Assembly (NCBI RefSeq): GCF_007049795.1
Contig: NZ_SCFY01000009.1
Location: 62,001 to 126,000, forward strand
From: Ectopseudomonas mendocina
GTDB taxonomy: Bacteria; Pseudomonadota; Gammaproteobacteria; Pseudomonadales; Pseudomonadaceae
Direction of reading: 5' to 3'
Length of the DNA stretch: 64,000 nt
Numbering within the stretch: position 1 is the stretch's first letter; the number at the start of each line of letters is the position of its first letter. Positions 46,984 through 52,216 of the stretch are shown piece by piece. The notes under the pieces are model-generated. The model was not told where the DNA came from, made no database searches, and worked only from the letters and a program-made list of their open reading frames with translations. The translations under genes and the position numbers were made by a program.

Positions 46984-47961
46984 TCAGCCCACCGCCGGGA
47001 TTCGGCACGCAGCGAACGAAGCGCTTAGCGTTTTGGCGTCCTGCGCCTGATCGAAGATCAATTCCAGCCGCGAGTCCTTGCGCCATTCGCTCGGAGTCCA
47101 TGCCTGTAGCGCTTGCCCCTGCAACGCATTCAGCGAGTGCCAGCCTTCGCCGCTATGCAGTACGGCCTTAGCCCTGCGCCAATCCATACGCTGCAGCCAC
47201 TGGCTGACTTGCGCGAGATCGAAACGCTGATTGGGGTGCCAGCGCCAACCAATGCTCCAGCCTTCAGGCTGGTCCTGCACCTGGCAGATCGGCTCCGCGA
47301 CATTGCGCCAGATCTGCGCCAGGCCCGCTGCAGTTGTGGGTAACTCGGCACTCGCCTCGACGGGCGAAGCCTGCGCCGCCAGGCCCGGCAGCAAGGCCAG
47401 GTCGAGCCGGCCCTGCGCGATCCAGTACAGCGGCACAGGCGGCAGGCTCGCGGCAATTCTCGCCCGGCTCGCCTCGTCCAGAGACTCGCTCTTGTTCAAC
47501 AACAGCAGACCCGCCTCATCCAGTGCCTGGCGCTGCACGTCCGGCAACGGCTGACCGCTAGCCAGTGCGGCAGCATCAAGCACCATCAGTGCCGGTTGCA
47601 CGGCCAACACGCCTAGCCAGGGCGGCTGACGCAGTTGCGCCAGCAACTGCGCCGGATGCCCCAGGCCGGACGGTTCGATCAGCAGGCGATCAGGCCTGGC
47701 CTTGCGCAGCAGGCGGCCAAGACCCACCTGAAACGGCGCACCATTGACGCAGCACAGGCAACCGCCGGCCACTTCGGCCATGGCGATACCGTCGTCGCCT
47801 TGCTCGAGCAAGGCGGCGTCCAGACCGATCTGGCCGAATTCGTTGATCAGCACCGCCCAGCGCTCGCCCGCCGGTTTTTGCGCCAGCAGGTGACGGATCA
47901 GCGTGGTCTTGCCGGCACCGAGCGGGCCGGCGATGAGGTGGGTAGGGATTTGACTGAGCAT
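46984..47961 (-). CDS. CobW/COG0523-family GTP-binding metallochaperone
   Basis: A 325-residue G3E GTPase. Walker A is GPLGAGKTT, the metal-binding CxCC motif appears as GGCLCCVNG, the Walker B-like ESSG is replaced by IEPSGLGHP, and the guanine motif is LLNKSE. The C-terminal CobW_C domain covers about 230-315. ATG at 47961 is preferred over 48009. It corresponds to the second COG0523 gene next to zigA in P. aeruginosa as recalled. No Zur-like box was seen in the 92-base gap before it. Confidence 0.87.
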   Translation of the reverse strand: MLSQIPTHLIAGPLGAGKTTLIRHLLAQKPAGERWAVLINEFGQIGLDAALLEQGDDGIAMAEVAGGCLCCVNGAPFQVGLGRLLRKARPDRLLIEPSGLGHPAQLLAQLRQPPWLGVLAVQPALMVLDAAALASGQPLPDVQRQALDEAGLLLLNKSESLDEASRARIAASLPPVPLYWIAQGRLDLALLPGLAAQASPVEASAELPTTAAGLAQIWRNVAEPICQVQDQPEGWSIGWRWHPNQRFDLAQVSQWLQRMDWRRAKAVLHSGEGWHSLNALQGQALQAWTPSEWRKDSRLELIFDQAQDAKTLSASFAACRIPAVG

Positions 47962-48053
47962 GAATTTATGTTCGGTGGTTCGCCAGACAAGTGCCAGCAC
48001 AGACTGCAAAGAAACAGCATGTTAGATTCGCCGGCAGTTTTTCGGGAGTCGAA

Positions 48054-48679: not shown

Positions 48680-49324
48680 TCAGACCAACCAATCCAGGGT
48701 CAACAACAAGCGTCGCTCGCCCGCAGGCGGCTGCGGCGAGCGGTGGATCAACCCGCGCCCCTCGTTGCCTTGCCATTTCTCGCCCTTGGCCAGCGCCACA
48801 TGGCCGGCGTCGAGGCGCTGGATCAATGCCTCGTCCTGCGGCTCTGCGTCCGGCTGACCGAGCTTGCTGCGCGGCATCGCGCCCTCCTCCAGCCAGTCGC
48901 TGCCGACACCGGCGTAGCTGGTGATCAGCCTCAGCGGCACGTGGTCGACGTGAAAACGCGGGCACATGGCCTTGTCCAGAGCGCGCAGGCGCAGGCCGAT
49001 GCGCTGGGCGTCGAGCAGGCAGGCATAGGCCCGCACCAGCCAGGCCACGTCGGCGAGAAAGGCCGCCTGACCCGGCAGATCGGCGTACTGCGCCACCAGG
49101 CCATCGACGTTTGGCTCGCTGTCCGCGCGCGGCAGCTCCAGGGTCATGGACTGTGCAAGCGGCTCACCCTGCGCCAGCAACACCTCGGCGAAGTCGGCAA
49201 TCTGCGCCGGCAGGCGACGCTGCCAGACGGCCAGGTTGACGCCGTCGTGCAGCACCTCACCCAGCACCTGGATATCCTCGCCCAGCACCTGCCGGGACAG
49301 GCTCGCCAACTGCAGGGCGAACAT
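48680..49324 (-). CDS. DUF1826 family protein
   Basis: A 214-residue protein found beside zinc-starvation GTPases in pseudomonads. Its start codon shares one base with the zigA stop (TGATG), so it is translated with zigA. Features are HVDHVPLRLITSYAGVGSDWLEEG and GRGLIHRSPQPPAGERRLLLTLDWL, which resemble the 2-His facial geometry of some iron/2-oxoglutarate proteins, though this is a guess. Function unproven; the operon indicates a role under zinc limitation. Confidence 0.82.
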   Translation of the reverse strand: MFALQLASLSRQVLGEDIQVLGEVLHDGVNLAVWQRRLPAQIADFAEVLLAQGEPLAQSMTLELPRADSEPNVDGLVAQYADLPGQAAFLADVAWLVRAYACLLDAQRIGLRLRALDKAMCPRFHVDHVPLRLITSYAGVGSDWLEEGAMPRSKLGQPDAEPQDEALIQRLDAGHVALAKGEKWQGNEGRGLIHRSPQPPAGERRLLLTLDWLV

Positions 49325-50529
49325 CAGGCGGCCTCCTGCTGCCAGGCACCGAAGGGGTCAGCGAGCAGGCGCCAGGCATCCGGGCCGCCGGCCATTTCCT
49401 CGTCGGTCAGCAGGCAATTATCCAGCTCACGCAGCAACTGTGGAAAATCGATGTTCTGGCCGATGAACACCAGCTCCTGGCGGCAATCACCAACCTCGGC
49501 ACTCCAGTGCTGCATGATCGTCTGCAGGCCTTCCTCGTCCTGCGGCCAGTGCTGCTTGGGCACGAAACGCCACCAGCGCCCGGCCAGGCCATGGCGCATC
49601 AGGCCGCCAGCCTGCGACCAACTGCCGGCCTCCTGGTATTTGCTGGCCAGCCAGAAAAAGCCCTTGGAGCGCAGCAGACGACCGTTGCGCCATTCCTGAG
49701 AGAGGAAATCGAAGAAGCGCTGCGGATGGAATGGCCGGCGCGCGCGGTAAGCACTGGAGGCGATGCCGTATTCCTCGGTTTCCGGCACGTGCTCGCCGCG
49801 CAGCTCCTTGAGCCAGCCCGGTGCCTGCGAGGCGCGGTCGAAGTCGAAGCGGCCGGTGTCGAGGATCTTGTCCAGGGCGATCTGGCCCATGCTCATGGCC
49901 TGGATGTCGGCGTGGGTGTTGAGCCCACGGAGGATGGCCATCAGCTCCTCGCGCTCGGCCTGGCTGATCAGGTCGATCTTGCTGATGAGGATGACATCAG
50001 CGAACTCCACCTGCTCGATCAGCAGGTCGGTGATTGAACGTTCGTCCTCCTCACCCAGGGTTTCGCCCCGGCTGGCCAGGCTGTCGGCCTCATGGAAATC
50101 GCGCAGGAAGTTCACCCCGTCGACCACCGTGACCATGGTGTCCAGCCGCGCCAGGTCGGACAGGCTGCGGCCCTGCTCGTCGCGGAAGGTGAAGGTTTCA
50201 GCCACCGGCAGCGGCTCGCTAATGCCGGTGGACTCGATCAGCAGGTAGTCGAAGCGGCCTTCGCTGGCCAGGCGGCTGACCTCGTCGAGCAGGTCTTCGC
50301 GCAAGGTGCAGCAGATGCAGCCGTTGCTCATTTCCACCAGCTTCTCTTCGGCGCGGTTGAGGCTGACGTCCTGCTGGACAGTGGCACCGTCGATGTTGAT
50401 TTCGCTCATGTCGTTGACGATTACCGCGACCTTGCGGCCTTCACGGTTCTTCAGCACATGGTTGAGCAGGGTGCTCTTGCCGGCGCCAAGAAAGCCGGAC
50501 AGCACGGTAACGGGTAGACGCTGATTCAT
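49324..50529 (-). CDS. zigA: Zinc-responsive COG0523 GTPase ZigA
   Basis: A 401-residue CobW-family GTPase. Walker A is [10 protein letters not shown], the zinc motif CxCC lies in [12 protein letters not shown], Walker B-like ESTGISEP and guanine motif ISKID. The long CobW_C domain (about 260-390) contains HPQRFFDFL and [16 protein letters not shown]. It is the second gene of the dksA2-zigA-DUF1826 operon. This subgroup acts as a zinc metallochaperone under zinc limitation. Because dksA2 upstream carries an inserted element, transcription into zigA could be affected. Confidence 0.9.
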
Positions 50530-50661
50530 GGGGGTGTTCCTCGTTCAGTCACGGTCACGCTGATGTTTTTCGCGCTGCTCCTGGCGCTCCTTGGCTTCGA
50601 TGCACAGGATCGCGGTCGGGCGCAGCAGCAGGCGCTTGAGGCCGATGGGTTCGCCGGTTGA

Positions 50662-50948
50662 GGGTCTGCCCCCCGTTTCGTCGTGGCCGCGCCGGCGCCA
50701 GTTTTTGCGCGGGGCTAGGCGCGAGACGCGAGACGCGAGACGCGAGACGCGAAGTTTGGTGCTCCAAATGAGCCGTCGAGCAACAACGCATCGCGCAAAA
50801 ACTGGCCCGGCCCTTCGGGTTGCGCGGCAAATGGCGCCATGCGGCGTTGCGGGACTTGGCAAGGGACCACCATTCCCTGCGTCCCGCGCCTTGCCTGGCG
50901 CCATTTGGCGCAGCAACGCGGCTCGCACCGAAACGGGGGGGCAGACCC
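50662..50948. mobile_element. MITE-like non-autonomous element inside dksA2
   Basis: A 287-bp segment bounded by 19-20 base terminal inverted repeats (GGGTCTGCCCCCCGTTTCG on the left, the reverse complement with one extra G on the right). It has no coding capacity of its own. Inside are (GCGAGAC) heptad repeats at 50721-50748, a 15-bp inverted pair (GCCAGTTTTTGCGCG at 50697 and its complement at 50793-50807), a CCCTTCGGG tetraloop stem and a second long inverted pair around GGCGCCATTTG. No clear target-site duplication was found. Its tight fit within the dksA2 frame shows it is an insertion. Confidence 0.82.
50721..50748. repeat. Tandem heptad repeat (GCGAGAC)4
   Basis: Four perfect copies, plus a partial fifth, of the 7-base unit within the inserted element. 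Copy number of such an array can change by slippage. Confidence 0.9.
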
Positions 50949-51280
50949 TGGGCACCAGCCGTATTCGCCACGAGCCAGGCGTTCAAGCGCCTGGTCGATC
51001 TTGTCCAGCAGCTTCTTTTCCCGCTCCAGCAGGCGCAGCTGCCATTGGCGCTGCTCCTCGGCGGCGCCGATATCGGCGACGTCGCTGCTGGTATCGGGCT
51101 GACGCAGCTCGGTGAATTCCTCGTCGATGCGCTTCTGCAACTCGGCTCGCTGGGTCAGCAGCCACTCGCGGAAGAACTGCTGCTGGGCGTCGTTCATGTA
51201 GTCATCCGCTGGCTGCGCCAGCAGTTCGGCCTCGGTGGTCGCGGTCAGGGTCATGACAATTCGGCTGGCTTGCTTTAATT

Positions 51281-51325: not shown

Positions 51326-52216
51326 ATGAACGACCAGCCCCTGCCGGATATTGCCGCTCAAGCCACCCACCACGACCTGCCACTGGACTGGGTCGGCATG
51401 GCCGGTATCGCCCTGCCCATTCGCCTGGCCAGCGCGGCCGTGACCGCCAGCGTCGATATCGGCGTGAGCCTCAATGATGCCGGCGCACGCGGCATCCATA
51501 TGTCGCGCCTGTACATGGCGGCCCAGCGCCTGGTGCATCAGGAACTGGACGTGCCTGCCGTGCTGCAGGTGCTAGATGACTGCCTGAGCAGTCACCAGGA
51601 GCTGTCCGACAGCGCCACCCTGACGCTGCGCGGCGAGGTACCACTCAAGCGTCCGGCGCTAGTCAGCCCGTTGAACGGTTGGAAGGGCTACCCCTTCGAA
51701 CTGCGCGCCCGGCAGGACGGCCGGGGCGTGGACATCGAATTGCAGGTCGAGGTCAGCTACTCGTCCACCTGCCCTTGCTCGGCAGCGCTGGCACGGCAGT
51801 TGATCCAGCAACGCTTCGCCTGGGACTTTCCCGACCAGCAGGTGGATTACTCCAGCGTGCTCGACTGGCTCGGCTCGACCCAGGGCATCGTCGCCACCCC
51901 GCACAGCCAGCGCAGCACGGCGACCTTGCGACTGCGCCTGGCACCGGGCTGCGTCGAACTGCCGGTACTAGAGTTGATCGACAGCGCCGAGCAGGCCCTC
52001 GGCACGCCGGTACAGACCGCGGTGAAGCGCGCCGACGAACAGGCCTTCGCCCTCGCCAACGGGCAGAACCTGATGTTCTGCGAAGACGCCGCACGCCGCC
52101 TGCACCGCGCCCTGCGCCAGTTGCCGCAGGCCAGCGGCTTACGCCTCAAGGTCATCCATGCGGAAAGTCTGCACGCCCACGACGCGGTGGCAGAGAGCCG
52201 CTGGAACTGGAGTTGA
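51326..52216 (+). CDS. folE2: GTP cyclohydrolase I, type IB (FolE2)
   Basis: A 296-residue enzyme that converts GTP to dihydroneopterin triphosphate for folate and queuosine synthesis. It is the zinc-independent isoform made when zinc is scarce. The conserved STCPCSAALARQ segment holds the active-site cysteine. Other T-fold features are SLNDAGARGIHMSRLY and FCEDAARRLHRAL. It is divergent from dksA2, with a Zur-like box between. Confidence 0.94.
   Translation: MNDQPLPDIAAQATHHDLPLDWVGMAGIALPIRLASAAVTASVDIGVSLNDAGARGIHMSRLYMAAQRLVHQELDVPAVLQVLDDCLSSHQELSDSATLTLRGEVPLKRPALVSPLNGWKGYPFELRARQDGRGVDIELQVEVSYSSTCPCSAALARQLIQQRFAWDFPDQQVDYSSVLDWLGSTQGIVATPHSQRSTATLRLRLAPGCVELPVLELIDSAEQALGTPVQTAVKRADEQAFALANGQNLMFCEDAARRLHRALRQLPQASGLRLKVIHAESLHAHDAVAESRWNWS

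Follow-up and report, generated by a model that had tools for sequence, protein, structure and literature searches.

The dksA2 gene of Ectopseudomonas mendocina (51254 to 50545, minus strand) is split into two frames by a 287-bp insert in the window, that is, in the whole 64,000-nucleotide stretch of DNA that was analysed. The insert is very probably a non-autonomous MITE, mobilised in trans by an IS5-family element, that splits and disables the gene; this explanation includes one insertion, spread of the allele between species, and upkeep of the palindrome arms at the DNA level.

The 5' part of the gene (50949..51254, minus strand), assigned by TIGR02420 and by alignment to intact relatives, comprises codons 1-101, ending in ..GEYGWC, and codon 102, CCA, which this alignment assigns to the replaced stretch. 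The 3' part (50545..50661, minus strand) starts with TCA, continues with TGEPIGLKRLLLRPTA.. through the stop codon, and matches TIGR02420 positions 81-110 (E 1e-6). In the ORF list, a predicted hybrid ORF of 179 aa (50715..51254, minus strand) leads from the native DksA2 N-terminal part into an element-encoded tail with its stop codon within the element; its E value against TIGR02420 dksA was 8.5e-23 in the HMM search. The C-terminal part of DksA is in the other frame: ORFs and HMM matches place it in the ORF 50545-50955 (minus strand). Joining of 50949 to 50661 by a script gave a 423-nt frame of 140 residues, which reads ..GEYGWC-PS-TGEPIGL... Sequence, ORFs, HMM matches and join script agree with the sequence-only reading, which had described dksA2 as split into two frames by a 287-bp element, with a 140-residue protein upon joining. 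That reading had left two consequences side by side, loss of DksA2 and reversible control, and loss is the better of the two. The predicted product would consist of DksA2 residues 1-101 and a foreign tail, without the C-terminal domain, and DksA2 function is probably lost in the window strain.

The zigA gene for a zinc metallochaperone GTPase (49324..50529, minus strand; NF038288, 697.9 bits against a cut-off of 600) starts 15 nt past the dksA2 stop on the same strand. The two genes are likely to be co-transcribed, and the interruption of dksA2 might have a polar effect on zigA. The divergent neighbour is folE2 (51326..52216, plus strand; NF010200, 311.4 bits against a cut-off of 215). Another ORF of the window (46984-48009, minus strand), with a P-loop and a CLCC motif, presumably resembles a G3E-type metallochaperone GTPase. 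A consensus scan of the element and its surroundings gave neither a promoter nor a terminator. Elsewhere in the window genome there is a gene for an intact zinc-finger DksA1; a further zinc-finger frame of the DksA/TraR type, the third when the broken dksA2 is counted, was observed at C57:89925-90026 (L257). In P. aeruginosa, expression of DksA2 is described as limited to zinc starvation (PMC9213440).

The insert measures 287 bp (GGGTCTG..CAGACCC), or 289 bp (50661..50949) with the terminal A and T, both of which match other family copies. Its left terminal inverted repeat, AGGGTCTGCCCCCC (50661..50674), is 100% complementary to the right one, GGGGGGCAGACCCT (50936..50949). Inner hairpin 1 (50697..50806) has arms at 50697-50711 and 50792-50806 that are 100% complementary and covary in 25 copies; inner hairpin 2 (50824..50911) has arms at 50824-50842 and 50893-50911 that are 89% complementary, and covariation is seen there as well. 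In pairwise alignment, tandem GCGAGAC units in the hairpin-1 region (50721..50752) make the window element 21 nt longer than the G291 and G223 copies, from which it also differs by one extra C. The single-strand DNA fold, computed on 301 nt with 6 nt of flank at either end, reached -114.6 kcal/mol with z = -9.2 against 100 shuffles. This means that the structure of the insert is not due to chance. The element is short (289 bp), carries no transposase gene and has perfect 14-bp terminal inverted repeats; the same ends and core occur at other loci, and the site is empty in relatives. The reading frames through the element vary among the copies. As the sequence-only reading had stated, there is no target-site duplication at the dksA2 copy: no direct repeat flanks the insert in the window sequence, and about 6 bp are locally replaced instead.

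The family is not confined to dksA2. It is present at three places in the window genome, and related sequence was found in 16 of 57 genomes, this one included, all within the genus; the expectation of related elements elsewhere was thus borne out. In a pattern search, the 18-bp end AGGGTCTRYNCCCGTTTC was found in 47 of 398 genus genomes, again including the window genome, and the reversed-pattern control gave 0 among the matches listed. The shortest element bounded by such ends measures 36 bp, with one base N, and the longest 333 bp. Among 40 distinct flank pairs, which leave out the dksA2 and G291-burst copies, include two from the IS itself and count orthologous fliG-fliH copies separately, TA is on both sides in 24, on one side in 9 and on neither in 7. 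Five equal-length copies in G291 at different sites differ by 2-5 nt in 267 nt, which indicates that the family was mobile recently. TA is on both sides in each of the six G291 copies read, and CTAG is on both sides in four of the six. Dispersal at unrelated sites and recent mobility, as expected of a MITE, are therefore both seen. It should be mentioned that the near-identical copies of this recent burst (L284, L289, L294, L298, L301 and L307) have TTGCCGTTTC ends, which were also observed on full-length IS copies in G276.

One family copy lies between fliG and fliH (L002; C5, approximately 148589-148854, in the window genome), with orthologues in G085, G223, G276, G324 and G001. With gap columns left out, none of the flanking stretches compared is more conserved than this copy in any of the five comparisons; against G324 it is 97.0% identical, versus 86.6-92.5% in the flanks. 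Constraint on this element is possible from such alignments. Since the copy is as conserved as its flanks or more, identity alone cannot date the dksA2 insertion. The same hairpin core was also observed with other ends (AGGGGGCGTTCTC.., AGGGTGTGTCATC..) at L010, L012, L013, L016, L017, L023 and L024, as if it had been fitted to different IS ends. Core-like sequences occur on plasmids of Azotobacter, Halomonas and P. aeruginosa (H1-H4; 76-89% identity over 42-67% of the element), where the matches carry no annotated features.

An autonomous element with the family ends was found in G405. It is 859 bp long, is present in six full-length copies, matches the 18-bp end consensus at 17 and 18 positions, and contains a transposase frame; each of the two copies compared has TA on both sides, in CTAG. 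The transposase belongs to NCBIfam transpos_IS5_3 (NF033580; 274.1 bits against a cut-off of 110) and has DDE_Tnp_1 and DUF4096 matches, as a DDE transposase of the IS5 type. The element may belong to the IS427 group of the IS5 family. On plasmids, 70 records had a match; among the matches listed, most were annotated as IS5 family and one as ISPa67-like. The window genome has one full-length IS of 857 bp, 77% identical to the G405 IS, with the ends AGGGTGTGTTGCCGTTTC and GAAACGGCAACAGACCCT, and pieces of another IS of the same group. The longest frame of this full-length copy is 203 codons, versus 266 in G405 and in three of the G276 copies read, and judging from this frame the copy looks broken. 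Among 11 genomes tested, the full-length IS is present in four (the window genome, G085, G276 and G405); G223 has a short piece only, G291 has partial pieces only, and G169, G154, G347, G399 and G001 gave no match. No IS was found to have precisely the GCCCCCCG variant of the ends; apart from this variant, the MITE shares its ends with the IS of the window genome and with that of G405, whose ends are nearly identical. Because ends and target are common to MITE and IS, we infer that the MITE would be mobilised in trans by IS5-family transposases of the transpos_IS5_3 type.

An origin from RAYT/REP sequences was rejected. A search with PF01797 in the window genome and 12 relatives gave 63 matches; none of the 33 loci read and scanned had family ends adjoining, and 8-base matches to the family end occurred in 8 of the 33, with nothing longer. 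About twenty near-identical IS200-like genes (PF01797, E approximately 3e-46) were observed on many contigs of G291, in an apparently separate expansion.

The dksA2/folE2 stretch was matched in 330 of 398 genus genomes. Among the 30 best loci from these 330 genomes (L032-L061), 26 are uninterrupted at this site, three are interrupted (the window genome, G291 and G223) and one is deleted. Empty sites thus exist in related strains, where the sequence-only reading had proposed to look for them, and one of them is in the same species (G085). L056 (G279) is uninterrupted at the insertion site and has a frameshift upstream in dksA2, which may be another loss or an error of sequencing. Named matches put the window in the P. 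mendocina/oleovorans/sediminis group: for 49045-50544 the nearest was P. sediminis PI11 (96%), and for the dksA2 5' part it was Pseudomonas sp. 8O (95%). The deleted locus, in G276, has lost 126 bp of dksA2 with the right edge at the right boundary of the element: the element is absent, and the right-hand scar is kept.

The sequence is TGGTGC-GCCGAG-ACC in close relatives and TGGTGC-CCA(insert)TCA-ACC in the interrupted alleles. In other words, the 6 bp GCCGAG are represented here by CCA/TCA, and the earlier suggestion of entry by replacement fits this comparison. The junction census covered 112 loci, with some genomes fetched twice: 104 readable uninterrupted, three interrupted, and five unreadable with the motif. 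Glu stands directly before Thr in 102 of the 104 readable uninterrupted loci, and the exceptions are L223 (Thr-Ala) and L255/G080 (Arg-Ser). A narrower motif count gave 107 of 108 with Glu; it required TGE after the site, and the census is fairer. Removal of the insert would leave Pro-Ser, which restores length and frame and not the usual codons. The junction C-x-x-T-G-E-P had been called natural; the open frame stands, and C-P-S-T-G-E-P departs from the Glu of nearly all relatives. It is conceivable that the original CTAG target lay within a Leu-Glu codon pair, CTA-GAG, and no such allele was seen.

The junction codons CCA..TCA are identical in the window, G291, G223 and G169. Apart from gaps, the elements of G291 and G223 are 99.3% and 98.9% identical to the window copy, and that of G169 is 95.9% identical. 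The dksA2 copies are 96-100% identical to one another, and the nearest fetched copies elsewhere are 89-91%. A pattern search for the TCA-type right junction, centred on G223 in the 398 genus genomes with the window genome not among the rows, gave matches with zero mismatches in G291, G223 and G276 and four matches with two mismatches. One of these four, G169, is the further interrupted allele; G284 and G080 have uninterrupted dksA2, and the G140 match is elsewhere. A left-junction search near G169 (243 genomes, up to 3 mismatches) matched only G169 without mismatch. Twenty other genomes matched at 3 mismatches, against four with reversed-control matches, and these twenty need not all be chance; in the six that were checked (G082, G101, G134, G135, G168 and G170), the match was outside the dksA2 locus. 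That the replaced bases are identical in all four alleles suggests one insertion followed by spread via recombination. The 500-bp identity profiles against eight genomes showed no clear tract exclusive to the interrupted alleles. The close interrupted alleles are on different 5' haplotypes, with G085/G390, G084 and G198 the nearest.

G169 does not sit comfortably with this course. Its right flank has 3 differences in 110 nt from the uninterrupted G399, versus 25 from the close interrupted alleles, and its left 116 nt have 9 differences from G399, versus 13-14. Outward from the element, G169 first sides with G399 against the other three interrupted alleles at 9 bp on the right and at 22 bp on the left. 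The shared donor tract on the right is therefore at most 8 bp; on the left, three sites (19, 40 and 55 bp) put G169 with the other interrupted alleles. In addition, 21 coiled-coil codons have been lost from dksA2 in G169. Nonsynonymous and synonymous differences between G169 and G399 are 11:13 in the 5' part and 0:3 in the 3' part. Summed over pairs, which are not independent, the nonsynonymous/synonymous ratio was 232/800 = 0.29 for intact-intact, 175/471 = 0.37 for interrupted-intact and 22/40 = 0.55 for interrupted-interrupted comparisons. An uninterrupted dksA2 that already contains the element, which had been named as evidence against a split gene, was not seen in the window species; in the distant G169 (L252, approximately 994-1640) the dksA2 frame runs through the element without a stop and would gain about 88 residues from it.

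The palindromic core was examined in an alignment (A1) of 25 copies, picked from the fetched copies to span the end types. It contains 94 pairs, 59 of them with double changes, and 96.1% of the cells are paired, against 82.4% when shuffled and 36-42% when slid. In an RNA under selection, G-U is expected above A-C throughout. The mispaired cells are 39 G-T and 39 A-C in the 91 pairs whose majority is Watson-Crick. The three pairs left out hold 41 more G-T cells (25 in an invariant T-G pair and 16 in a loop-closing pair), which would change the count to 80 against 39. The equality in the 91 pairs leans toward arms matched at the DNA level rather than a selected RNA. Template switching is a known route to the matching of palindrome arms (PMC8794818, PMC7202029). 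A self-splicing intron or another known RNA family was also considered and rejected: Rfam gave no significant match, the best having an E value of 1.2 and 22.4 bits against a gathering score of 90.

Precise movement of the element and reversible on/off control had both been proposed from the letters. In such a switch, precise excision would restore DksA2, for example in zinc starvation. The frame of 140 codons is indeed open once the 287 bp are removed, relaxation of the interrupted alleles is mild, Ser occupies the junction place in one uninterrupted gene (G080), and full-length IS copies exist in relatives. However, a scar-pattern search of the 398 genus genomes with up to two mismatches, which would miss scars in species with more divergent 3' sequence, found no precisely excised allele. 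Derivatives carry deletions instead, and the only element-free one, G276, lacks 126 bp. The excised gene would have Pro-Ser in place of the usual second-position Glu, no flanking direct repeat is present to permit slippage, and the IS of the window genome has the shortened frame (the search covered this IS5 group only). Precise movement and reversible control are thus not upheld, and the switch is very improbable. It is hardly credible that the insert is an intervening sequence, removed from the RNA or bypassed in translation in a gene that still works. The identical site in four genomes, the strong fold with its many double changes and the shallow decay would suit it, whereas the balance of G-T and A-C, the lack of an Rfam match and the copy between fliG and fliH speak against it; the lengths of 287, 265 and 264 bp give the flanks different relative frames, and G169 lacks 21 coiled-coil codons besides.

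A site-selective element might also have struck the same codon several times, instead of one allele spreading. The native sequence of G169 close to the element, within 9 bp on the right and with the first diagnostic left site 22 bp out, and the different 5' haplotypes of the close-species alleles are in favour of this. Nevertheless, it is unlikely: independent transposition would hardly yield CCA..TCA in all four, the dksA2 copies resemble one another more than any fetched copy elsewhere, and the usual family target, CTAG, is absent at this site. A homing-like allele without an endonuclease, in which the palindrome, or breaks at its base, would drive short-tract gene conversion into the intact dksA2 of other species, is unlikely. 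If the element were copied in this way together with hardly any flank, the identical CCA..TCA junctions within native flanks in the distant G169 would be explained.

In the preferred explanation, the MITE mobilised by an IS5-family transposase probably inserted a single time, in an event that removed or replaced about 6 bp at the site where the family usually duplicates TA. Homologous recombination may then have carried the interrupted allele from species to species, and decay of this allele seems to have begun, with the deletion of the element and 126 bp in G276 and the coiled-coil deletion in G169. The palindrome arms would probably be kept matched via template switching at the hairpins. Several observations count against this explanation. 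The dksA2 copies have no TA duplication, no IS was found with the exact GCCCCCCG ends, and only four of the 11 genomes tested gave a full-length IS. Given that the allele occurs in four genomes from different species, its decay is shallow; the frame of G169 is open across the element, and the tracts shared with G169 are short for homologous recombination.

The event is of an ordinary kind, a MITE in a dispensable paralogue; the spread of the allele and the palindromic core are unusual. MITE insertion is a route to loss of a zinc-sparing backup regulator. The MITE family described here is tied to IS5 and present in dozens of the searched Pseudomonas genomes; its palindromic core is elaborate, and the covariation of this core could pass for that of an RNA. 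Should the short-tract spread prove true, a non-coding element could move between species at one fixed address.

In the literature searched, as far as its text was available, no description of this element was found; MITEPsy1 and the SBW25 repeats came up instead. MITEPsy1 of P. syringae pv. phaseolicola, trapped as mobile and given as "IS5?", has no coding sequence and 18-nt terminal inverted repeats (PMC3189936). It is similar to the dksA2 element in being small and non-coding, with CTAG or YTAA as the target, and differs in its 100-bp length, its ends GGAAGGTCTGAAAAAGCC and the reported 4-nt duplication; the available part of the source describes no multi-hairpin core like the 265-bp core of the dksA2 family (PMC3189936). 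In P. fluorescens SBW25, the R0 and R2 repeats, for which a MITE nature and mobilisation in trans have been proposed, likewise have inverted repeats around a hairpin-forming core and ends shared with an IS (PMC2718517). They are shorter, 89 and 110 bp, and the likeness is one of layout. IS insertions without target duplication have been tied to deletions or rearrangements (PMC11708052). These rearrangements are large and IS-borne (PMC11708052), whereas in dksA2 about 6 bp are replaced by a MITE.

The ISPa67-like elements are also close: over its whole length, the 859-bp element of G405 shares 77.8% identity with a plasmid copy that is annotated as ISPa67. Unlike the MITE, ISPa67-like elements are autonomous, and the transposase of the G405 copy has about 249 aa when counted from its ATG; the G405 element has a CTAG target with TA on both sides, and the MITE has the same ends and the same target.
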